A stretch of DNA of 64,000 bases from Leeuwenhoekiella blandensis MED217. Its GTDB lineage: Bacteria > Bacteroidota > Bacteroidia > Flavobacteriales > Flavobacteriaceae. Below the pieces are notes generated by a model. The model made no database searches, had not been told where the DNA came from, and was given only the letters and a program-made list of their open reading frames with translations. Shown in pieces: positions 1-9,540 of the stretch. A program made the position numbers and the translations under genes. How positions within the stretch are numbered: the stretch's first letter is position 1; every line of letters starts with the position of its first letter. The stretch spans positions 1,897,687-1,961,686 of the forward strand of contig NZ_CH672395.1 in assembly GCF_000152985.1 (NCBI RefSeq), read 5' to 3'.

Positions 1-399
1 AGTGATACCCTAAATACTGAGGATACTGTTATAAAAGCTTGGCAGATGGCTATTAAAAATACCACACTAACACAACCTTTGATATTCCATTCAGACCAAG
101 GTATCCAATATGCCAGCCAAAGATTTACTAATCTACTTAAAAGCTATAATGACCTGGTAAAACAATCGATGAGTAGAAAAGGTAATTGCTGGGACAATGC
201 CGTAGCTGAATCCTTTTTTAAATCTCTGAAAGTAGAATGGGTATATTGGCATAAATACAAGCTTAAATCACAGGCAGAGTTATCTATCTTTCAGTGGATA
301 GAAACCTGGTACAATACCAGAAGAAGACATTCCTACTTAGGAAACAGAACTATTAAAGAATTTGAAATAGATATGTATAATCAAAAACTAGCAGCATAG
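1..399 (+). CDS. IS3-family transposase OrfB, C-terminal part (5' partial)
   Basis: The frame is open from base 1, so the gene starts outside the window. The visible ~132 residues are the second half of an IS3-type DDE integrase core. HSDQGIQYAS carries the second catalytic Asp, and KGNCWDNAVAESFFKSLK carries the catalytic Glu. The C-terminal WYNTRRRHSYLG segment is characteristic of the IS3/IS150 groups. The enzyme cuts and joins the ends of its own element. It differs clearly from the second IS in this window (5572-6787), so the island has been hit by two unrelated IS3 groups. Confidence 0.92.
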   Translation, partial: SDTLNTEDTVIKAWQMAIKNTTLTQPLIFHSDQGIQYASQRFTNLLKSYNDLVKQSMSRKGNCWDNAVAESFFKSLKVEWVYWHKYKLKSQAELSIFQWIETWYNTRRRHSYLGNRTIKEFEIDMYNQKLAA

Positions 400-441
400 T
401 CACTCAACTTAAAGTCCAGTTTTTTGTTGCAAGTCCAGTCA
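1..441 (+). mobile_element. IS3-family insertion sequence, right-hand part
   Basis: The window opens inside an IS3-family element that carries the end of its transposase. The right end lies at about 437-441, where a sequence typical of IS ends (aagtccagtca on the plus strand) meets the coding sequence of the dndE-like gene read on the other strand. The left end and its target duplication lie outside the window, so the exact boundary is uncertain by a few bases. The element truncates the dndE-ATPase gene at its 3' end. Confidence 0.8.
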
Positions 442-1547
442 GATAACGCAGGTGGAAGATTAAGATATAAACTTTTATCTAGAATGTTTGGATTATTGGG
501 GTTACAATTAAATATGTTTGTGGACAGATCACGAATGATTGAATATAATGTGTCTTGCCGAATATTGTTTTCCTCATAGTAATTTTCCAATCCCTCAAAT
601 AATTCTAAAATAGTAGGATATCCACCATTTTTACTGTCTAATAAATCATTTATTAAAGTAATTAAAATATTCTCTTGACTAACGCCCATTCTAGGAACGA
701 AAGTAGATATTGTATCAACAAAAGCCCTTATGCTAAAAGGTCTCTGTCTTTCGTCAAGATTTATAGATAAAAATGGATTAAATTCAATACCGCCATCATT
801 TACGATATCAACAAACTCACATCTTGTAGCATCCAGAAAAGGTTTTAATTGCTCTGGGTTTCCTTCACCTTTGTAATCGAAAAAGATAAACTTCAGATCA
901 TTATTAGTGTTTTTAGAAATTTGATATAATATATCTTTCACTAATTGCGTTTTTCCAGAACCTGCCATCCCAGCAATTGCAATATTTCTATTGTCAAACT
1001 CTCTTAAATCATTAATTTTTATAACAACATTATCACCTTCTACTGTTTGGCCTAATTCAAAAGTTAAAAGGTCTTTAAACTCTTTAATATCAATATTTTT
1101 TGTAGAAATATTTGTTTTAACAACGTTTTTCCTTAAATCCAATCCACTTTTAACAACTTTTAGAAGTATATCAATGTGGTCACCCTTAGATATGTCAGCT
1201 TTCTCAATTTTACTATTCCAAATTTCTAAACCGTGATTTAAGTGAAGTTTAAACAGTTTAATAAATTCATCATCAAATGTGTTTCTGCTATAATGTTGGT
1301 CAAGAATAGATTTAAAAATTATTGTATTTGAACCATTTCCTATAACAGTGCCAAAAATTGCTTTATCATCTCTAAATTCTTTACCATCGGAGCTTGGAAT
1401 AATGTCATTTTCAATGTCAAATATTTTACCTGATAGTAAACTATTCGAAAATGCAATACGAGGAACTATTCCGTCATTTTTAAAATTGTATAAGGTTTTA
1501 AGCTTATATAATAATTCGTCATTTTCTTTGCTTATTTTAATTCTCAT
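381..1547 (-). CDS. dndE: DndE-like domain fused to HerA/FtsK-like ATPase, 3'-truncated by an IS
   Basis: The N-terminal ~115 residues (starting MRIKISKENDELLYKLKTLY) resemble DndE of DNA phosphorothioation systems, a small nicked-DNA-binding protein. A P-loop domain follows, with Walker A GMAGSGKT at about 193-200 and a FtsK/HerA/VirB4-like FFDYKGEG segment at about 222-229, so the protein is a DndE-ATPase fusion. The start overlaps the end of dndD by 11 bp, which implies translational coupling. The last ~20 residues, from SDWTCNK on, are encoded by the inserted IS, so the native C-terminus is missing and the product is probably inactive. The DndE assignment is by pattern memory of the family; the ATPase assignment is secure. 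Confidence 0.75.
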   Translation of the reverse strand: MRIKISKENDELLYKLKTLYNFKNDGIVPRIAFSNSLLSGKIFDIENDIIPSSDGKEFRDDKAIFGTVIGNGSNTIIFKSILDQHYSRNTFDDEFIKLFKLHLNHGLEIWNSKIEKADISKGDHIDILLKVVKSGLDLRKNVVKTNISTKNIDIKEFKDLLTFELGQTVEGDNVVIKINDLREFDNRNIAIAGMAGSGKTQLVKDILYQISKNTNNDLKFIFFDYKGEGNPEQLKPFLDATRCEFVDIVNDGGIEFNPFLSINLDERQRPFSIRAFVDTISTFVPRMGVSQENILITLINDLLDSKNGGYPTILELFEGLENYYEENNIRQDTLYSIIRDLSTNIFNCNPNNPNILDKSLYLNLPPALSDWTCNKKLDFKLSDYAASF

Positions 1548-3639
1548 AACCTTGGAAATAGCCTGTTTTTAAATTTGTATTTGCCCCATCATTAAATAGT
1601 AAATAGGATTTAGAAATATTTGCTGAAATGTCTTTATATCGTTTAGGTGTAATCTCACTATTTGTAGAGAATAATACAACTTGTTCAGATAGAGCTGGAT
1701 AATATTTTTTAGTAATATTATCTCTATGTTCTTCATCAAGCCTTCCAAGAGGCGTATCGATAAATATTGGTAAACTTTGTATTGATTCTTTCAAGATTGC
1801 TTTTATTAAGCAAGAAATATAAATTTGTTTTTCTCCAGAAGATAAACTCTCTTTTCTAATTTCATTATCGTCTTGGTCTAAAAGGGTTATTTTCATTCCT
1901 TGGCCAGATGCTAAAATGGTAACTTTTACATCTTCAATAAATTTGCTGCTATTTTCTTCGCTACCAAGTTTGTGCATTAATATTTTTAGCTCGCTTAAAA
2001 TTGTTTTTTCAAGACTGTCTTTGTGTTTGTTTTTCTGTTCTTCGAGAAATAAATTTAAAATGTCAATGTACTTCTGACTTTCTTTAATTTTAATTTTGTT
2101 TTGGGCATTAACATCAACCTTTTTAACTAATACAGACAATTGTTGATTCAATCTTATTATGTCACCTTTAAGTTTGTTTATTTGCTGATTATTCTCTCCA
2201 ATTTTTCTGTTATTCTCTGTGATATTATAATCTGCTGTTTCTTTTTTTGATGAATAGTCTAAAATCAACTCATCTTCCAAATCAGCATCAACCTTGCTTA
2301 AAGTTTTGTTTAATTCTGAAAGTTTGATTCTTGTTTTGTTGAATTCTTCAATTGTAGTTTCGAATAAGTCTTTTGATTGAGAACTTACAAGATTAATTGC
2401 ATCATAGATTAAGCTTTTTTCAGAATTGTTTAAATCGTGTTCAAATTCTAAATCTTTGTAATCTCCATTAGAGGTAAACAATTCTGAACCTAAATTTTTG
2501 GCCTTATCGTAATAGAAAAGCTTGTCCTTGAATGACATAGTAGAATTTTCAGGTTCAGGTGGTTTATTAAAAAGTAGCTCTATAAAATTTTCAATTTTTT
2601 CAGAATTTTCTATTGAAGAATTTTGAGATATTGAGTTTTCCTCTTGAATTTCAAGATGTTCGCTTACTTCTTCAAGTTTTCCTGTCAAAATAGCTAACGG
2701 AATTATTTCGCTTAATTCATTGAATTTTTCAGATAGTTCAAATTCCTTTGCTGTAAGCTTTTCTATTTCAGATAAAATTGATTCTCTGTCAAATGTCGAA
2801 TTCCCTTGTTTACTGTGTTGCGATATGAGGTTATCGTATTGTCTTATGGTTTTCTTTAAATCATCAATCTCTTTAAGATTTTCAGCATTTTCTTCTTCAA
2901 GCTTTTCAATATCTATTTCAGAGAGTTCAATTGCTTTTTCTTTATCAACTATTTGTTCTTGTAAGTTTTTTGTCGCTCCTTCTTTCTTCAATGTATTAAT
3001 GTAAAACTCTATATCCTCAATTAGAGTGTCATATGTATCAAGACCTAATATTTTACCTAATGCATCATTTATAAAACTACCTTCTTCCTTAATAGATAAA
3101 TTTGCAATTTCAGAGATTTTTTCTGCATCAAAAAACACAAATTTTGCAGCATCGATTGGGATTATATAATCATTGATGACATTAATCTTATCAGCTTCAT
3201 CATCAAAGATTTCCATATTTGAATTAGTATCTGAAATAGAAAGTGTTTCGTTCATACTAGTAACATTAAATGTTCTGGTTATGATAACACTATCAGAGTT
3301 TGAATTTAGTTTATTCAATTCTGGTAATTCTATTTCTGAAACTTCTATACTAACTGAAAATGTATCCTTATTTTCTTTTTTTGCTGTCCAATTTATAGAC
3401 TGTTGCATAAAAGATGAATAGTTTTTTTCTTTTTGAATTTCCTTTTTAAAGTTATCATCAATTTGAGAAATTTTCTCGCCATAAAGACACCAAACTATGG
3501 ATAATAAGAGGTTTGTTTTACCATAACCATTTCTACCTCCAATAACTACAATATTTCGGTCGGTATCAGTTGTTAAATCAATATTTACAGCATTGTAATA
3601 TTGTCTAAAATTGTTGATTTTTATATTTGAGAACTTCAT
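1537..3639 (-). CDS. dndD: DndD-like SMC-type ATPase
   Basis: This is a 700-residue SMC/Rad50-like ATPase. Walker A GGRNGYGKT lies at about 34-42. A long Glu/Lys/Leu-rich coiled-coil centre has no CxxC zinc hook. The signature SLSSGEKQIYI is at about 598 and Walker B is the segment FIDTPLGRLDEEHRDNI at about 628. The DTPLGRLD-x2-HR wording is the hallmark I associate with DndD, the ATPase partner in sulfur modification of the DNA backbone. Its start overlaps the stop of the 60-residue gene by 4 bp (ATGA), and its end overlaps dndE. The gene itself looks intact, but both flanking partners are damaged. A generic defence-associated SMC ATPase is the alternative reading. Confidence 0.8.
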   Translation of the reverse strand: MKFSNIKINNFRQYYNAVNIDLTTDTDRNIVVIGGRNGYGKTNLLLSIVWCLYGEKISQIDDNFKKEIQKEKNYSSFMQQSINWTAKKENKDTFSVSIEVSEIELPELNKLNSNSDSVIITRTFNVTSMNETLSISDTNSNMEIFDDEADKINVINDYIIPIDAAKFVFFDAEKISEIANLSIKEEGSFINDALGKILGLDTYDTLIEDIEFYINTLKKEGATKNLQEQIVDKEKAIELSEIDIEKLEEENAENLKEIDDLKKTIRQYDNLISQHSKQGNSTFDRESILSEIEKLTAKEFELSEKFNELSEIIPLAILTGKLEEVSEHLEIQEENSISQNSSIENSEKIENFIELLFNKPPEPENSTMSFKDKLFYYDKAKNLGSELFTSNGDYKDLEFEHDLNNSEKSLIYDAINLVSSQSKDLFETTIEEFNKTRIKLSELNKTLSKVDADLEDELILDYSSKKETADYNITENNRKIGENNQQINKLKGDIIRLNQQLSVLVKKVDVNAQNKIKIKESQKYIDILNLFLEEQKNKHKDSLEKTILSELKILMHKLGSEENSSKFIEDVKVTILASGQGMKITLLDQDDNEIRKESLSSGEKQIYISCLIKAILKESIQSLPIFIDTPLGRLDEEHRDNITKKYYPALSEQVVLFSTNSEITPKRYKDISANISKSYLLFNDGANTNLKTGYFQGYEN

Positions 3640-3818
3640 TTTATCGCTTTTTCAATAACATCATTAATTTTTTGCTGATGGTAATTATTTCTTTTCAGCA
3701 ACTTCTTTGTTTTAACTGAATCCAATAAAGTTTCAATAGATTCAAAACTGACTTCTTTATCATTACAAATCTCTTTGAGTCTTTGGTTTTGCAATAGTTT
3801 AGTTTCTTTTATTTTCAT
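3636..3818 (-). CDS. Small Dnd-operon protein (60 aa)
   Basis: This is a highly charged, helical 60-residue protein with no signal peptide or membrane segment. It overlaps the stop of the upstream gene by 20 bp and the dndD start by 4 bp, so it is almost certainly translated as part of the operon. Its pattern (L..IC...EVSFE.I..LLD....KKLLKRN) resembles short proteins annotated beside DndD-like ATPases as 'DNA modification system-associated small protein'. That resemblance is from memory. No catalytic residues are visible. A structural adaptor for DndD or the large DNA-binding protein is an inference only. Confidence 0.6.
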   Translation of the reverse strand: MKIKETKLLQNQRLKEICNDKEVSFESIETLLDSVKTKKLLKRNNYHQQKINDVIEKAIK

Positions 3819-5571
3819 ATTTTATATTTTGAAGAAGTTTAGCAACTTCAATAAATTTATTTTCTTCTTTGCTGCCAAGTTCATTTTTATCAAATAGCTT
3901 TCTCTGTTTGTAAAAGAATTGATATAAATTTTCTTCACCATCTTTATTTGCTGAAGGCAGTCGACGATTATTTGAAACAAATGAGATTAATTCTTGATAT
4001 TTCTCATTTGAGTTCAATCTTCGTCTACCGTTTACGCTTGGGTATTTTACTAATAAACTGTTTAGTTTTTCTAGTTTGTTTTTAGCAAGTTTTCCCTTGT
4101 TTTGCTTACTTTTTTGAACACAAAGCCAACGGTATAGTTTTATTTCCTTTTGAGGCACTCCATTTGAAAATGGTAGCCTTTTTTCTGTTAAGACGAAATT
4201 TTGAAGCATTTCAAACCTTTCTTCCCAAGTTTTTTTGTCGGTTTTCTGGACTTCCGATATTTTCTTAAAGTCAGATTCATATTTTTTTGTTGTTAATCCT
4301 ATATGCGAACCTTTAAAAAAGATGTACAATCCAGATTCATCAAGTTTCAAATTTTGAAGTATGCTATATTGATTTGATTTTGGACGATATTTTAAAACAT
4401 GTTCTGTTATGTCTGAAATATGTTTCGGTACAGAATATTGCATTAAATATTCTTCAGCAATATCTCGTATTGTACCTCCTTTGAAATTGTCCAATTCACT
4501 TTCCCATTTTTTCAAACCAAATACACTTTTTCTACCAATTGGCACAAAACCATTTTTACGTTTCATTGAAACTCTGATTTTTACTTCTTCTGTGTCATAG
4601 TTAGGATGCAGTTCTATTACCTTTTCAAAAATCTCTTTAACCTTTGAAGGTTTTCCTAAATGTTCAAGTGCTTCAAAAGCATATTCGTGTGCTTGTCGAG
4701 TAGTGTTTCTTTTGAAATTTATGTTTTCTTCTAAATCAAGATAAATTTCAAATTCTTCATTAATTATTTTCTCACAGATTGGGAACAACAACTCTAGAAA
4801 ATCAATATAGTTGTTCAATAGAAACTTTGATAAATAGCTTTTGAAATTAAAGGAATAAGATTCTTCAATTCTATCGCTTAACCTCTTTGAAATATCATTA
4901 GTAAAAGAAGTGAAATCAAATTCCAAGGATAATTCTTTTTTTATTAAATAGAAGTTATTCCAATTGTGTCTGTTGCGTGAATTAAAATATTTTGGTTGTA
5001 ATACATCTTCATAATTCCCTACTAAAGAAAAACTATCTTTTAAATATGCGGAAAGTATGAAAGTGATAAATTCTCTAGAAAAATTTGTGTTATTTGATTG
5101 GTTGATTTTATTTAAAATATCTGTGTCTATTTCAATATACATTGATTCAACATCTATGCTATATTTTTGAAATAAATCGTCATTGAAATTAGAAATAAAG
5201 AGTAATTTATTAAATAAACTTTCTAAACCTATTTTCCTTATCTGTCTCACTCTTTCTCTTGAAAGATCAACTTGTTCAGCTATCTCATCAAGCGTAAGTT
5301 CTTTTTGATTATTGAATAACTTCAACGCCCGCTTAACAATTACTGTTTGAGTTTCATCAAAAAATGCGTTTTGATTAAAGAGAAAGTCTGTAAGTTGAAA
5401 AATTGATTCTGACTCTAATATTTCTCTAGGAACTAATGGAATGTCGAAAGTTCGTTGTATTAAAAATCTATTTTTTAATGCAATTAAATAGTTCTCATCT
5501 CTTGTCTGGCTTACCTCAAGTATGACTTTTTTGATTGTACTAATATAATCGCTAATTTCTTTAGTAGACCT
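3799..5571 (-). pseudogene. Sigma-4-like HTH / helicase-associated protein, C-terminal fragment of an IS-split gene
   Basis: The open frame runs from the IS junction at 5571 to 3799, about 590 codons. It is not preceded by an ATG; the first usable codon inside it is a TTG at 5325. A sigma-70 region 4-like helix-turn-helix ([22 protein letters not shown]) lies shortly after that TTG. The last ~150 residues hold two repeats of the helicase-associated type (W..R.E.L..FV....RLP, then LYRWLCVQ; again LISFVSNNRRLP, then LYQFFYKQRK). It is the first gene of the dnd-like operon and overlaps the 60-residue gene by 20 bp. The matching N-terminal fragment is at 6783-7244. Function is unknown; a DNA-binding regulator or effector of the system is the simplest guess. 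Confidence 0.75.
5568..5571. repeat. Left target-site duplication (ACCT)
   Basis: The four bases ACCT lie immediately left of the IS end. The same four bases follow its right end at 6788-6791. A 4-bp duplication fits the IS407 group of the IS3 family. Deleting one copy plus the element restores the host reading frame. Confidence 0.9.
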
Positions 5572-5631
5572 TGTAAGCTTCCCTTCAAACCGAACTGTTT
5601 AGAAGTGTAATAATTCTTAATTTTAAACAGT

Positions 5632-5898
5632 ATGAGACGAAGCAAATTCACACCTACACAGATTGCAAAAATTTTAAAGGAGTTCGACAACGGTAAGAGT
5701 GTTGAAGAAATTAGCCGCGAATACGGTGTCAGTACCTCTACCTTTTATAAATGGCGTTCTAAATACGCTGGTATGAGCAGCAAAGAACTTAAGCGTATTA
5801 AGGAGCTCGAAGCTGAAAACGCCCGTCTAAAGCAGATGTATGCCTCTTTAGCACTAGACCACCAAATGGCAAAAGAGATTATTGAAAAAAAGCTCTAA
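5632..5898 (+). CDS. IS3-family transposase OrfA
   Basis: This 88-residue protein starts with an N-terminal helix-turn-helix of the Tnp_1 type ([20 protein letters not shown], then [20 protein letters not shown]) and continues into a leucine-zipper-like tail ([20 protein letters not shown]). OrfA binds the IS ends and regulates transposition, and its N-terminus forms part of the OrfAB transposase. Its 3' end contains seven consecutive A residues (5885-5891) followed by G. This is a classic slippery site from which a -1 shift enters the orfB frame before the orfA stop. Confidence 0.93.
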
Positions 5899-5963
5899 AG
5901 CCCTGCCGTAAACGCACCATAGCTAAAGAACTTATCCGCTACGGCATCAGTAGGGCGTGCCGA

Positions 5964-6761
5964 GTGCTTAATATGAGTAAAAGTGTTTACTATTATAAGC
6001 CATTACCCAAGGATGATACTCCTATAGAGAAGGCTCTTAGAGACAAAGCAGAAGAACATTCAGAAGAGGGTTTCTGGAAAGCCTACTGGCGTATCCGTAA
6101 CGAAGGAAAGCCTTGGAATCATAAGCGGGTACACAGGGTGTATGTATCTTTAGGGCTTCCTTTAAGAAGAAAAGCAAAGAAGCGCCTGCCCGCGCGTATA
6201 CAGGAGCCTTTGGAGATTCCTGAAGAATTGAATGATACTTGGAGTATTGATTTCGTAAGCGATGTCCTAGAAAACAAGAGACGTTTTAGATCTTTTAACG
6301 TAATAGACGATTTTAATCGAGAGGCACTACATATTGAAGTAGACTTTTCATTGACTAGTAATCGGGTAGTCTGGGTACTCAATCACCTAATCAACCGACG
6401 GGGCAAGCCAAACAGGATCAGGATGGACAATGGTCCTGAATTCATAGCAAACCTAACTGCTGAATGGAGTAAAATGCATGAAATTGAATTTAAATACATA
6501 CAACCAGGCAAACCTACTCAAAATGCTTTTGTAGAACGCTTTAATGGCTCCTATCGCAGAGGTGTCCTAGATAAATATATCTTTGAAAACATTGATCAGG
6601 TAAGGGAACAAACTCAAATATGGATGGAAGATTACAATAAATATCGTCCCCATGACTCACTGGGCAAAATAGCACCAGTGCAATACGCAAAACTCCATTC
6701 TCTTGGGGCTAGCCCCAAGAGAATGAAAAACAATAATTTTAAACCAGTTTTGGAAGATTAA
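5964..6761 (+). CDS. IS3-family (IS407-like) transposase OrfB
   Basis: The 265 residues from the first ATG carry an intact DDE core: WSIDFVSD (first Asp), [10 protein letters not shown] (second Asp) and [20 protein letters not shown] (Glu). The [13 protein letters not shown] wording points to the IS407/IS51-like groups. The frame is open upstream to the seven-A run at 5885-5891. Through a -1 frameshift the fused OrfAB would read ...[20 protein letters not shown], giving about 24 residues before this ATG. The true product is therefore probably the OrfAB fusion, with this start as an internal or secondary one. Confidence 0.93.
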
Positions 6762-6782
6762 GCAGTTCTAGTCTGGGGAAGC

Positions 6783-7244
6783 TTACAACCTTTCTCCAAC
6801 ATTTTTGATTTTATCAATTTCAAATGACCTTAAAATCAATATTCGGTTTGCAAAATTTTTTATTTTCAGGTCACCTCCAAGAAAAGATTTAATGGCATTT
6901 TTACTCCTAACTTTTAAACCTTCTGTATTTACAATAATGTAACTATTTATTACATTTCTTTGAACCCGGGTGAGATCAGCAATTATTTCTTTGAAACTAT
7001 CGTTTTTTGCTTCTGAATTATCTTTATTTAAATTTTCCTGTTCTGGTGACTCACTCAGATATCTAACACAAATACCTATAAGCTCCATATTAGACTTTCT
7101 TCCACAATTTTGCAGTTTTTCAAATGATCTATTTTTTAAATAGTAATCTTTAATCTCACTTATTGTGTTTAAATCATTCGATTTACAGACATTATAGGTT
7201 CTAACGCTTATTTTTTTATTATTGTGGATTTCGTCAATAGTCAT
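6783..7244 (-). pseudogene. Alpha-CTD-like DNA-binding protein, N-terminal fragment of the IS-split gene
   Basis: This is the 5' part of the gene whose remainder lies at 3799-5571. The ATG at 7244 is preferred to a TTG at 7259. Residues ~10-60 look like an RNA polymerase alpha C-terminal domain (ISVRTYNVCKSNDLNTISEI, then LQNCGRKSNMELIGIC). A second such segment near the end (LKVRSKNAIKSFLGGDLKIK, then IKNVGER) is cut by the IS. Joined across one ACCT copy, the sequence becomes KNVGERSTKEISDYI, which matches the alpha-CTD helix-hairpin-helix pattern and strongly supports the reconstruction. The intact protein would be about 741 residues. Confidence 0.75.
6788..6791. repeat. Right target-site duplication (ACCT)
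   Basis: This is the second copy of the ACCT duplication, directly after the right inverted repeat ending at 6787. Confidence 0.9.
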
Positions 7245-7259
7245 TACCTTGAAAATCAA

Positions 7260-8130: not shown

Positions 8131-9540
8131 TCGGGTATGGATATTTATTACAGAAAACCGAAAACCACAAACCGCAAACAGCAAACTGAAGACTGCTACT
8201 GCCGACATAATCCAGAGCTTCCTGCAGCTATTCTGAACCAAGGGAATTTTGGATTCGTGTAACCCGTCGGGTATGAAAATGCTCAGTCATCTCGACGTTA
8301 GGAGAGATCACACAACAAGCTAACTCCCTTCTCTCCCGAAGTTTCGGGAGGAGAAGGGCTGGGGATGAGGGCTTTTGATGAAGGGCGCACCAGATGCGAT
8401 TTCTCGACTGCGCTCGAAATGACAAATGCGCTCAAAAACTGCTTTTTCATGTAACCCTTCGGGTATGGATATTTATTACAGAAAACGGTAAACTGAAGAC
8501 TGAAAACTGCTACTGCCGACTTTATCCAGAGCTTCTCGCAGCTATTCTGAAACAAGGGAATTTTGAATTCGTGTAACCCTTCGGGTATGAAAATGCTCAG
8601 TCATCTCGACGTTAGGAGAGATCACACAACAAGCTAGCTCCCTTCTCTTCCGAAGTTTCGGGAGGAGAAGGGCTGGGGATGAGGGCTTTTGATGAAGTGC
8701 GCACCAGATGCGATTTCTCGACTGCGCTCGAAATGACAAATGCGCTCAAAAACTGCTTTTTCGTGTAACCCTTAGGGTATGCGTATTCAATACTGCAAAC
8801 AGAAAACCACAAACCGCAAACCGCAAACCGCAAACTGCTACTACCGACTTAATCCAGAGCTTCCTGCAGCTATTCTGAACCAAGGGATTTTGAATTTGTG
8901 TAACCCTTCGGGTATGAAAATGCTCAGTCATCTCGACGTTAGGAGAGATCACACAACAAGCTAACTCCCTTCTCTCCCGAAGCTTCGGGAGGAGAAGGGC
9001 TGGAGATGAGGGCTTTTGATGAAGTGCGCACCAGATGCGATTTCTCGACTGCGCTCGAAATGACAAATGCGCTCAAAAACTGCTTTTTCGTGTAACCCTC
9101 AGGATATGCGTATTCAATACTGCAAACAGAAAACCGCAAACCATAAACTGAAGACTGAAAACTACTATTACCGACTTAATCCAAAGCTTCCCGCAGCTAT
9201 TCTGAACCAAGGGAATTTTGGATTCGTGTAATCCGTCGGGTATGAAAATGCTCAGTCATCTCGACGTTAGGAGAGATCACACAACAAGCTAACTCCCTTC
9301 TCTCCCGAAGTTTCGGTAGGAGAAGGGCTGGGGATGAGGGCTTTTGATAAAGTGCGTACCAGATGCGATTTCTCGACTGCGCTCGAAATGACAAATGCGC
9401 TCAAAAACTGCTTTTTCGTGTAACCCTCAGGATATGCGTATTCAATACTGCAAACAGAAAACCACAAACCATAAACCGCAAACAGCAAACTGAAGACTGC
9501 CACTGCCAACTGCTACTGCCAACTGCTCACTGTTTTTCTC
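8131..9540. repeat. Tandem array of four ~320-bp intergenic repeat units
   Basis: A unit is repeated four times; the marker GCTCAGTCATCTCGACGTTA starts at 8281, 8595, 8922 and 9250, giving periods of 314, 327 and 328 bp. Each unit holds a (G)TAACCCttcGGGTATG mini-palindrome in two alternating contexts, an AAACTGAAGACTGCTACTGCC tract, and a strong hairpin (CCCTTCTC.TCCCGAA with TTCGGGAGGAGAAGGG). It ends in TCTCGACTGCGCTCGAAATG, which is common between genes in this phylum. Minus-strand frames starting MSFRAQSRNRIW recur once per unit and are by-products of the repeat, not genes. Confidence 0.85.

Follow-up and report, generated by a model that had tools for sequence, protein, structure and literature searches.

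The Dnd phosphorothioation (PT) module is formed by DndCDE (Rakesh et al. 2024, PMC10853773; PMC12193691), and its dndC precedes dndD in a tight gene order. According to the sections of PMC12193691 covered here, the DndD-binding stretch of E. coli DndC comprises residues 433-482, and joint mutation of three DndC residues, L458 among them, broke DndD binding. The covered sections of PMC10853773 already describe fusions of DndE to HerA/FtsK ('clade-3' HerA/FtsK) that sit next to a DndD-related ABC ATPase, and DndDE dyads that are free of PT genes.

The window, a stretch of 64,000 nucleotides from Leeuwenhoekiella blandensis MED217, carries an operon that shares with the PT module, as far as the published text was covered, the DndD ATPase, DndE, the DndC docking segment and a tight gene order. 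It differs in that the PAPS-reductase part of DndC is missing, the operon has no dndB, DndE is fused to HerA, and a large DNA-binding protein, BIG, has been added. With the clade-3 fusions and DndDE dyads, again in the text covered, it has in common a DndE-HerA beside DndD and, with a subset, missing PT genes. A preliminary description had reported minus-strand overlaps of 20, 4 and 11 bp, which match the ORF ends (BIG 3799, SP 3636-3818, DndD 1537-3639, DndE-HerA 1547). The features, including insertion sequences (IS), are as follows.

1..399, + strand: transposase-type frame of the left IS, 3' end; the frame starts at L004:17334, and this IS splits DndE-HerA
381..1547, - strand: DndE-HerA fusion, N-terminal piece (PF08870 1.2e-11 at 2-113; HerA/DUF87, PF01935, 1.3e-6 at 163-341); last residues read from the IS junction
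1537..3639, - strand: DndD, ABC/SMC-type ATPase, whole, 700 aa (TIGR03185 2.5e-78)
3636..3818, - strand: SP, 60 aa, putative free-standing DndD-docking segment of DndC (Pfam Sp-DndD, PF20306, 2.2e-12; aligns to the DndC tail)
3799..5598, - strand: BIG, C-terminal piece, 599 codons open (PF04545 3.8e-8, PF03457 6e-10), with a sigma-70 region 4-type HTH, a winged-HTH core and two HA units
5577..6787, + strand: insertion sequence inside BIG, with transposase-type frames at 5632-5898 and 5964-6761
6783..7259, - strand: BIG, N-terminal piece, 158 aa from a TTG, with an ATG at 7244; one alpha-CTD-type unit (own profile)
L004:16469-16906, outside the window: DndE-HerA, C-terminal HerA piece, 96% to residues 381-525 of an intact relative

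The window thus has the order BIG-SP-DndD-(DndE-HerA), with the two end genes split by IS and with SP and DndD whole, which bears out the earlier term 'decayed'. The IS at 5577-6787 has 8 genome copies at 99-100%, most with these ends. The left IS lies mostly outside the window and interrupts the HerA half of DndE-HerA. With both of its end genes interrupted, the operon has probably lost its function in L. blandensis MED217. The BIG N-terminal piece aligns to residues 1-148 of an intact 734 aa relative (56%) and the C-terminal piece to residues 147-734 (87%); this protein was the closest intact relative first found, and its size agrees with the ∼741 residues of the earlier reconstruction.

DndD is present in a single copy in the genome and scored 264 bits against TIGR03185 (NCBIfam), above the cut-off of 245.85. 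Its translation shows a Walker A motif (GGRNGYGKT), a signature motif (SSGEKQ) and a Walker B motif (PIFIDTPLGRLDEE). With PADLOC, this ATPase is matched nearly as well by PbeC models as by those for DndD. A PDB sequence search with DndD gave nothing at 0.01. The DndE part, though fused to HerA, scored 45 bits against PF08870 (cut-off 25); with the DndE equivalog TIGR03184 it fell below the cut-off (30 versus 71.85).

SP aligns with DndC tails, in E. coli DndC from about residue 426 onward. The position of DndC L458 is Leu in 29/29 SPs. At the docking-triad position E462, E was found in 13/29 and V in 16/29, and at R471 there is N in 27/29, with R one place earlier in 26. Since these two positions vary, docking by SP is not proven residue by residue. 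An SP profile was compared with 12 DndC proteins. It scored 43, 27 and 26 bits with those of loci that carry both BIG and DndC, 29 with that of L075, and 19.5 or less with the other eight; two of the twelve, from L041 and from the L059 genome, gave no match. The SP of L048, at 1788-1985, was first missed by the gene caller. A PDB sequence search with SP returned one engineered protein alone, at 0.018. Judged by these alignments, SP is a free-standing counterpart of the DndD-docking tail of DndC, without the sulfur-transfer enzyme. Given weak matches of the SP profile to proteins of ∼71 aa in a set of type III-like loci, either direction is conceivable: DndC may have shed its enzyme part, or the free SP may be older.

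The DndC sulfurtransferase is found neither in the operon nor, by DndC profile, in the whole genome, and its tail alone is present as SP. The preliminary description had noted that the window holds neither dndB nor dndC. This stands, and it had pointed to the region left of the first IS as the place to seek a dndC-type gene; neither gene was present in the 16 kb read there. Three frames of the genome match the PAPS-reductase domain, one of 306 aa, one of 210 aa and a third that is presumably a tRNA-lysidine synthetase. The window genome has no DndB match (PF14072), and DndB-like matches over the cut-off occurred in 5/34 genomes, always on contigs other than that of the operon. DndH N-terminal domains were not found in the 34 genomes: all 44 PDLC02684 matches lay within model positions 1290-1714 of 1715, which is the HerA part.

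In BIG, Pfam identified sigma-70 region 4 and HA in the C-terminal piece, the two HA units being counted with our own profile. RNAP alpha-CTD (PF03118) matched the N-terminal piece at 4.6e-4, under the cut-off. Among 29 BIGs, alpha-CTD was found in 24, sigma region 4 in 24 and HA in 13. The structure model of BIG had a pLDDT of 86, and Foldseek searches with it gave local, HTH-like matches, none of them significant. On sequence grounds, BIG is a modular chain of DNA-binding units without a recognised catalytic domain. Nine BIG-like loci were read from a first search, 6/9 of them without DndD. At L023, a single gene separates the BIG-like protein from a type I restriction-subunit gene.

Related loci were gathered with DndE-HerA as the only query (at least 40% identity), so that BIG had no part in the search. 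L072 and L074, whose upstream regions are cut by a contig end, and L021 (genome G211), whose BIG lies at a contig end, were left out before counting. Of 34 loci, 28 read BIG-SP-DndD-(DndE-HerA) without dndC, three read BIG-DndC-DndD-(DndE-HerA), one has DndC without BIG, and two are unreadable. On these counts (BIG-SP in 28/34) we rejected the idea that BIG accompanies this DndE-HerA branch only occasionally, as a passenger. As read from gene order and profile matches, the cassette recurs: BIG stands with DndD and DndE but without DndC in 28/32 readable loci. A pattern in which dndB/dndC are constant and BIG is occasional was not found, and the reverse was seen. BIG had been described as taking the place of dndC, which holds only in part: what remains of DndC is the 60 aa SP, which had not been named as such, and because three loci carry BIG and DndC together BIG is not simply a substitute for dndC.

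The 28 BIG-SP copies span six named Bacteroidota families, and all four frames are whole in 24/28; intact operons include those of Flavobacterium daejeonense (L067) and F. profundi (L069). Among 27 measured loci, BIG overlaps SP in 26, SP overlaps DndD in 27 and DndD overlaps DndE-HerA in 25. This conservation bears on whether the operon is a selfish or degenerate remnant, functionless, with SP the relic of a deleted DndC. Damage does occur: both the window copy and the DndD of L075 are broken, DndE-HerA of L059 and L079 is split or short, and BIG of L077 is split. However, whole copies across six families and an SP conserved in 29 leave this reading with almost no credence.

The genomes were also searched for DndC at 1e-10. 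No match was found in 29/30 BIG-SP genomes, four of which have a known completeness (97-100%), so DndC supplied in trans as a rule was rejected. The view that this is a PT system served by a DndC, or another modification enzyme, encoded elsewhere in the genome could draw on genome G742 (locus L059), with a DndC on another contig, and on the three BIG operons with their own DndC; the 29 genomes largely refute it, and we regard it as very improbable. Between the options first offered, a PT variant or DndD/DndE parts put to another purpose, the 28/32 loci and the 29/30 genomes favour the second.

A recurrent fifth gene was sought among proteins of 150-1200 aa, up to three per side, from 26/28 loci. 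No Pfam family at 1e-8 occurred in more than 2 of 134 neighbour proteins. The four genes are contiguous in 28 loci, and PbeA (HKD nuclease-SF2 helicase) is not in the operon. From the flank proteins (set A6), 5/139 were dropped for size or because they were open at the locus end; alignment A5 omits L048, L077 and L045. IMG/VR gave no relative by tblastn, a plasmid search one HA-domain match alone, and a phage search two HerA-part matches alone. HerA ATPases often work with nucleases, and HARE-HTH, whose Pfam title includes 'restriction endonuclease HTH', is present in 3/29 BIGs. Both points would suit a restriction system in which cleavage falls to an unlinked nuclease gene or to a nuclease domain of BIG that escaped recognition. 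We consider this improbable, given the scan of neighbour proteins of 150 aa or more and a BIG model with no fold match at E 0.001.

Near-identical operons differ sharply in single modules. Between the window and L080, DndD is 97%, DndE 98% and the BIG core 91% identical, and the BIG N-module only 60%. Between L066 and L080 the BIG tail is replaced (2 versus 4 HA) and the remainder is 94-99% identical. Between L069 and L066, DndE is 47% identical beside a DndD at 93%. Nucleotide identity drops in parallel with protein identity in these pairs. BIG as a whole diverges more quickly than DndD, its core being only 56-75% identical in many pairs whose DndD stands at 88-92%, so only sharp local drops argue for exchange; pairs such as L066/L067 show none. 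Taken on these alignments, the N-module and the repeat array of BIG, and DndE, each appear to have been swapped separately in pairs with DndD 93-98% identical. An AU test on DndD did not reject a clade of L068 and L069 (p 0.152), so a DndE/DndD conflict was not confirmed. DndD trees allow one or two BIG-SP origins (one-clade p-AU 0.254; bootstrap with 200 trees, a single change in 8%). The first DndD tree was built without L072, L074, L075, 13/18 type III-like loci and the duplicates L020/L022, that of the bootstrap test additionally without the other 5 type III-like loci, L042 and L046, and the DndE tree without L059 and L079.

The exchanges also weigh on a rival reading in which BIG regulates transcription of the operon or senses invasion, with SP, DndD and DndE-HerA as the working parts. 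The alpha-CTD and sigma region 4 units resemble parts of the transcription apparatus, DndB has been reported to regulate some dnd operons, and BIG-like proteins exist without DndD, as at L023 near the restriction-subunit gene. However, BIG has a length of 566-975 aa and as many as three alpha-CTD-type units and four HA units, which is large for a repressor, its modules change in three sharp cases while the remaining operon is constant, and its frame overlaps SP in 26/27. A regulator is thus rather unlikely, if still a reading to be taken seriously.

We give a probability of roughly one half to the reading that the cassette is a PT-free Dnd derivative in which a DndD/HerA motor is directed by DNA-reading modules that can be exchanged, the window containing an IS-broken copy. 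The cassette may have become a DNA-targeting defence in which sulfur marking of DNA has been given up, and we infer both this function and a mechanism. DndD dimers and DndE-HerA would form an ATP-driven complex that scans and translocates DNA. SP would sit on the DndD head as the DndC tail does, and would hold BIG there or signal to DndD. Reading of the DNA target would be shared by BIG and DndE, both of them exchangeable determinants of specificity, in the manner of HsdS in type I restriction enzymes. Engaged foreign DNA would be stalled, looped or pumped rather than marked, because neither a modification enzyme nor a nuclease recurring as a partner was found. Points against this include the need of a motor without nuclease or mark for some means of stopping DNA, itself unproven, and the six of nine BIG-like loci that lack DndD. 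BIG could also be just a regulator, and the three operons with BIG and DndC imply that BIG is compatible with phosphorothioation.

A bolder form is possible but tentative: an immune machine free of nuclease and modification, in which the SMC-like ATPase DndD and a HerA translocase, directed by three separately exchangeable reading modules (the alpha-CTD-type end and the repeat array of BIG, and DndE) and coupled via the detached DndC tail, mechanically stop chosen foreign DNA. It would then be a targeting system that recombination re-aims, derived from Dnd by dropping its chemistry, which we likewise advance with some doubt. Immunity conferred by a motor alone would, if true, be unexpected on mechanistic grounds. 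The steered-motor reading offers a testable answer to what some DndC-less DndD-DndE systems might do. A docking peptide kept as its own gene after loss of the enzyme suggests that DndD needs the peptide, or what it recruits, even without sulfur. Should BIG and DndE indeed be exchangeable determinants of specificity, operons that are nearly identical but for one module would offer ready pairs for finding the DNA targets.

A literature search on Sp-DndD/PF20306 and DndE-HerA fusions found no paper, and the main-text sections of PMC10853773 covered here gave no description of BIG, of SP as a DndC tail or of module exchange. Relative to the published text as covered, these three (for SP, its origin) appear to be new, and the DndE-HerA fusion and DndC-less DndDE are known. 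The CxC ABC-ATPase/PbeABCD systems, as presented in the covered sections of PMC10853773, share a small operon protein, an ABC ATPase of the same superfamily and DndE; their PbeA and, in some, a DNA methylase are missing here. The window DndD and the DndDs of the 28 BIG-SP loci also have no CxC/CxxC (zinc-hook) motif. MzaA of the MZA system (NF041931) matches BIG at E 0.001 with 18 bits. The likeness is a sigma-region-4-type HTH in a large anti-phage defence protein, whereas the match is limited to about 30 residues and far under the cut-off of 800. Type I RM systems lend an analogy alone, with no sequence relation claimed: their methylase and nuclease are missing from the BIG-SP cassette, and HsdS has in common with it exchangeable DNA-recognition modules on a constant motor. 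In the type III-like loci L081-L098 the last three genes are identical in kind and order (SP-like protein, DndD-type ATPase, DndE-HerA), the DndE-HerA being 24-27% identical. BIG was not found in these loci; its position is taken, in both L082 and L087, by a methylase together with a type III-like helicase. PADLOC assigned the L082 methylase and both helicases to type III systems, and gave DndD as the best match for both ATPases. Assignment of L081-L098 to the CxC/Pbe type was rejected (CxC or CxxC in 1/18 ATPases only). These loci suggest a chassis with changeable partners.

The operon lies on the minus strand and encodes a large DNA-binding protein (BIG), a 60-aa protein (SP), a DndD-type ATPase and a DndE-HerA fusion (EH). 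The overlaps of 20, 4 and 11 bp between these genes, noted in the preliminary description, are borne out by the gene coordinates:

6783-7259 and 3799-5598, minus strand: BIG, two pieces
3636-3818, minus strand: SP, whole
1537-3639, minus strand: DndD, whole
from 1547 downwards, minus strand: EH, split by a second IS
L004:16469-16906 (stretch left of the window): C-terminal HerA piece of EH

BIG is interrupted by an IS at 5577-6787, which was probably active recently, since 8 copies at 99-100% identity are present in this genome. EH is interrupted by the second IS, to the left, and its pieces match residues 2-387 and 381-525 of an intact relative's EH. DndD is single-copy in the genome, which is one contig of 4.24 Mb. 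Elsewhere in the window, minus-strand frames 8228-8425, 8542-8739, 8746-9066 and 9197-9394 start with a near-identical peptide (MSFRAQSRNRIW...), so there seems to be a repeated unit of roughly 300 bp in 8228-9394.

Domains were assigned using Pfam. EH contains DndE (45.3 bits, cut-off 25) and DUF87/HerA (29.1, cut-off 23.2). SP matches PF20306 (47.3 bits, cut-off 27.2), titled 'Small protein found in certain Dnd DNA modification systems'; the existence of this family shows that SP is already known to curators. BIG contains HA (39.7, cut-off 28.4) and sigma-70 region 4 (33.2, cut-off 24.1) domains, with an RNAP alpha-CTD (20.3) under the cut-off of 23.8. DndD scored above the NCBIfam equivalog cut-off. 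Among PADLOC 2.0.0 models, the ATPase was matched by those for DndD (best 4e-90) and PbeC (best 1e-86), and neither BIG piece was matched by any model at E 1.

The recurrence of this cassette was examined in several samples. PF08870 matched 10/395 genomes of the phylum, and EH-size frames were found in 5/10. BIG-SP was present in three of these five (the window genome, G247 and G597), and DndC preceded DndD in the other two (G114 and G627). DndC was also present in the five genomes with a stand-alone DndE. In this sample DndC was called by alignment, at 42-64% to L043, a locus whose plasmid relatives are annotated dndC. A search with the C-terminal BIG piece matched 15/395 genomes of the class. 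Nine loci were read: two hold the full cassette (L020, L022), a contig end truncates L021, and the other six, which are weaker matches (L023-L028), have no DndD near the BIG-like gene. The BIG family is therefore wider than the cassette.

A scan independent of BIG, using an alignment of three EH proteins on GTDB genomes, generated 52 loci, 34 of them with EH identity of at least 40%. BIG-SP-DndD-EH was found in 28/34, copies that are not independent, several being near-identical. L047 and L069 are the contigs already sampled as G093 and G247, and each was counted once. Three loci have BIG-DndC-DndD-EH (L070, L071 and L073, the L071 BIG being cut by a contig end), one has DndC and a broken DndD with no BIG found (L075), and two are cut by contig ends (L072, L074). 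All four frames are whole in 24/28 BIG-SP loci, the exceptions being L048, L059, L077 and L079. In L048 a contig end cuts BIG, and SP is present though hidden from the gene caller. Other copies look damaged: EH is split in L059 and short in L079, BIG is in two frames in L077, and in Saprospira grandis (L075:3679-11584) DndD is in pieces with other frames between. Sequencing errors may lie behind part of these. Named hosts are Flavobacteriaceae, Weeksellaceae, Cyclobacteriaceae, Chitinophagaceae, Prolixibacteraceae, Marinifilaceae, one Desulfococcaceae bacterium and one Patescibacteria MAG, the last perhaps a binning error. DndD is 99% identical between the Ichthyenterobacterium magnum (L066) and Flavobacterium daejeonense (L067) operons, and this identity across genera points to recent transfer.

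Sulfur-transfer genes were sought in whole genomes. In the window genome PF01507 matched three frames (306, 210 and 468 aa); the 468-aa frame, the one that was read, resembles a tRNA-lysidine synthetase. The DndC profile (A4) had no match in the whole 4.24 Mb contig. Across 39 whole genomes it matched six: four whose locus itself carries DndC (L070, L071, L073, L075), G742 (the L059 genome) on another contig than the operon, and the L074 genome over a 39-residue stretch only. By this profile 29/30 BIG-SP genomes have no DndC match, completeness being known for only four (97-100%). DndB (PF14072) scored above cut-off in 5/34 genomes, always on a contig other than the operon's, which in draft genomes is compatible with nearness (the G739 operon contig is 6.8 kb). 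The DndH model matched 30/34 genomes, with 44/44 matches confined to the HerA part.

In alignment A3, SPs correspond to the C-terminal ∼60 residues of DndC, and SP was caught weakly by DndC models (0.006 and 0.05). A profile built from 29 SPs was scored against 12 DndC proteins. Those of the BIG-DndC loci gave 43.4, 26.9 and 25.7 bits, L075 28.9, L043 19.5 and others less; 2/12 (L041 and the L059-genome protein L103) had no match. The SP start aligns at about residue 426 of E. coli DndC (L105, NZ_OL790696.1). In PMC12193691, an AlphaFold3 model of the E. coli B7A proteins has the DndD globular domain bound to DndC 433-482, with a second contact between the very C-terminal DndC helix and coiled coil 1, and the DndC triple mutant L458D/E462A/R471A loses DndD binding. 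L105 has L, E and R at these positions in the same numbering. Among the SPs, position 458 is L in 29/29, 462 is E in 13/29 and V in 16/29, and 471 is N in 27/29, with R at 470 in 26. SPs stop short of the E. coli C-terminal helix. On this alignment SP corresponds to the DndD-docking tail of DndC, the first docking segment thus being kept as a separate gene.

The DndD tree was built without type III-like rows, L042 and L046. A fully supported split sets the BIG-bearing DndDs apart from the five DndC-type rows; BIG-DndC rows form one clade (100/100) and BIG-SP rows one or two groups. Most simply, a DndC-DndD-EH operon would have acquired BIG, and one or two losses of the enzyme part of DndC would then have left SP behind. 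Change in the reverse direction is also conceivable. Up to three neighbors a side were scanned at 26/28 loci (134 proteins of 150-1200 aa). No Pfam family at 1e-8 matched more than two of the 134, and thus no recurrent fifth gene of this size was found. In the first 25 of 164 families, where several models may match one protein, PADLOC models at 1e-15 gave two matches each for AriA, Old and pAgo, and one each for GajA, type I methylase and specificity, DRT, and type II and orphan methylase. By raw count, some cassette loci lie near defence genes.

At E 0.01, alpha-CTD was found in 24/29 BIGs, sigma region 4 in 24/29, HA in 13/29, HARE-HTH in 3/29 and a homing-endonuclease-associated repeat in 1/29 (L059). 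Our own profiles identified one to three alpha-CTD-type units in 28/32 BIGs; of the four with zero, two are truncated by contig ends and one is split. HA units number 2, 3 or 4 in 15/32 and are absent from 17/32. The L059 BIG has three HNH_repeat stretches in place of HA units. AlphaFold2 modeled the 734-aa L069 BIG with pLDDT 86.2 and pTM 0.59. Foldseek against PDB gave no match at E 0.001; SelB fragments were best (0.025), followed by sigma region 4 domains (E 0.5-3, most with probability 0.90-0.99, target TM about 0.4-0.7) and forkhead domains. No catalytic domain was seen in BIG by Pfam scan, AlphaFold2 model or Foldseek against PDB. BIG-like proteins without DndD occur in other genomes of the class (L023:8360-10354, L024:8518-10881, L025:7769-9766, L026:7390-8529, L027:7914-9920). 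The one in L023 has a type I restriction-subunit gene (REase_I 3e-223) next but one to it, and in L027 a nearby gene product matches JetC weakly (9e-6) over its first ∼55 residues. The BIG family may serve several defence systems.

The remaining 18/52 scan loci (L081-L098) have EH identities of 24-27% and no BIG by the BIG profile. Four were read (L081, L082, L087, L094), and encode a methylase, a helicase, a ∼71-aa protein, a DndD-type ATPase and EH. Two examples are:

L082:3249-11203: type III-like layout
L087:1813-11050: type III-like layout

By PADLOC the L082 methylase is type III (2e-74), the L082 and L087 helicases are type III REase-like (7e-17, 8e-15), and the ATPases match DndD best (9e-58, 3e-59). 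CxC/CxxC is absent from 17/18 of the ATPases of L081-L098, and their ∼71-aa proteins match the SP profile weakly (best 20.6 bits). The last three genes thus occur here with another partner, so that the chassis has a second arrangement.

Modules were compared in 31 operon pairs with DndD at least 85% identical. Between the window and L080, the BIG N-module is 60% identical, the BIG core 91%, SP 97%, DndD 97% and DndE 98%; the window N-module is likewise 58% identical to L066 and L067. L066 and L080 differ in the BIG tail (60%, 144 gap columns, 2 vs 4 HA units), everything else being 94-99%. L069 has 47% in DndE against L066 (BIG core 91%, BIG tail 95%, DndD 93%), whereas against L068 DndE is 95% in common and the BIG core 63%. 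For the window against L080 and L066, nucleotide identity is 57-70% in the N-module and 90-98% in DndD. Since it drops together with protein identity, the probable cause is replacement of stretches and not selection on a few residues. However, the whole of BIG evolves faster, with cores of 56-75% in many pairs with DndD at 88-92%, and some pairs, such as L066/L067, have no identity drop. L069 falls in different supported groups in the DndE and DndD trees, but on DndD an L068+L069 clade survived the AU test (p 0.152). The proposed module exchange rests on the identity pattern, with three sharp cases.

BIG, the origin of SP as the tail of DndC and module exchange are not mentioned in the portions of PMC10853773, PMC12839542 and PMC8569181 consulted, and literature searches, with most subscription papers outside their reach, found nothing closer. 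The gene set, missing enzyme, docking segment and sharp module differences are apparent from the sequences. SP would sit on DndD, BIG would act together with SP, and DNA stalling by the cassette machinery may follow. PMC10853773 describes DndE fusions to HerA/FtsK domains next to a DndD-related ATPase, DndD-DndE pairs lacking phosphorothioation genes, DndE as a target-specificity element and a small protein of CxC systems, and it raises the possibility of another function for systems that lack DndC.
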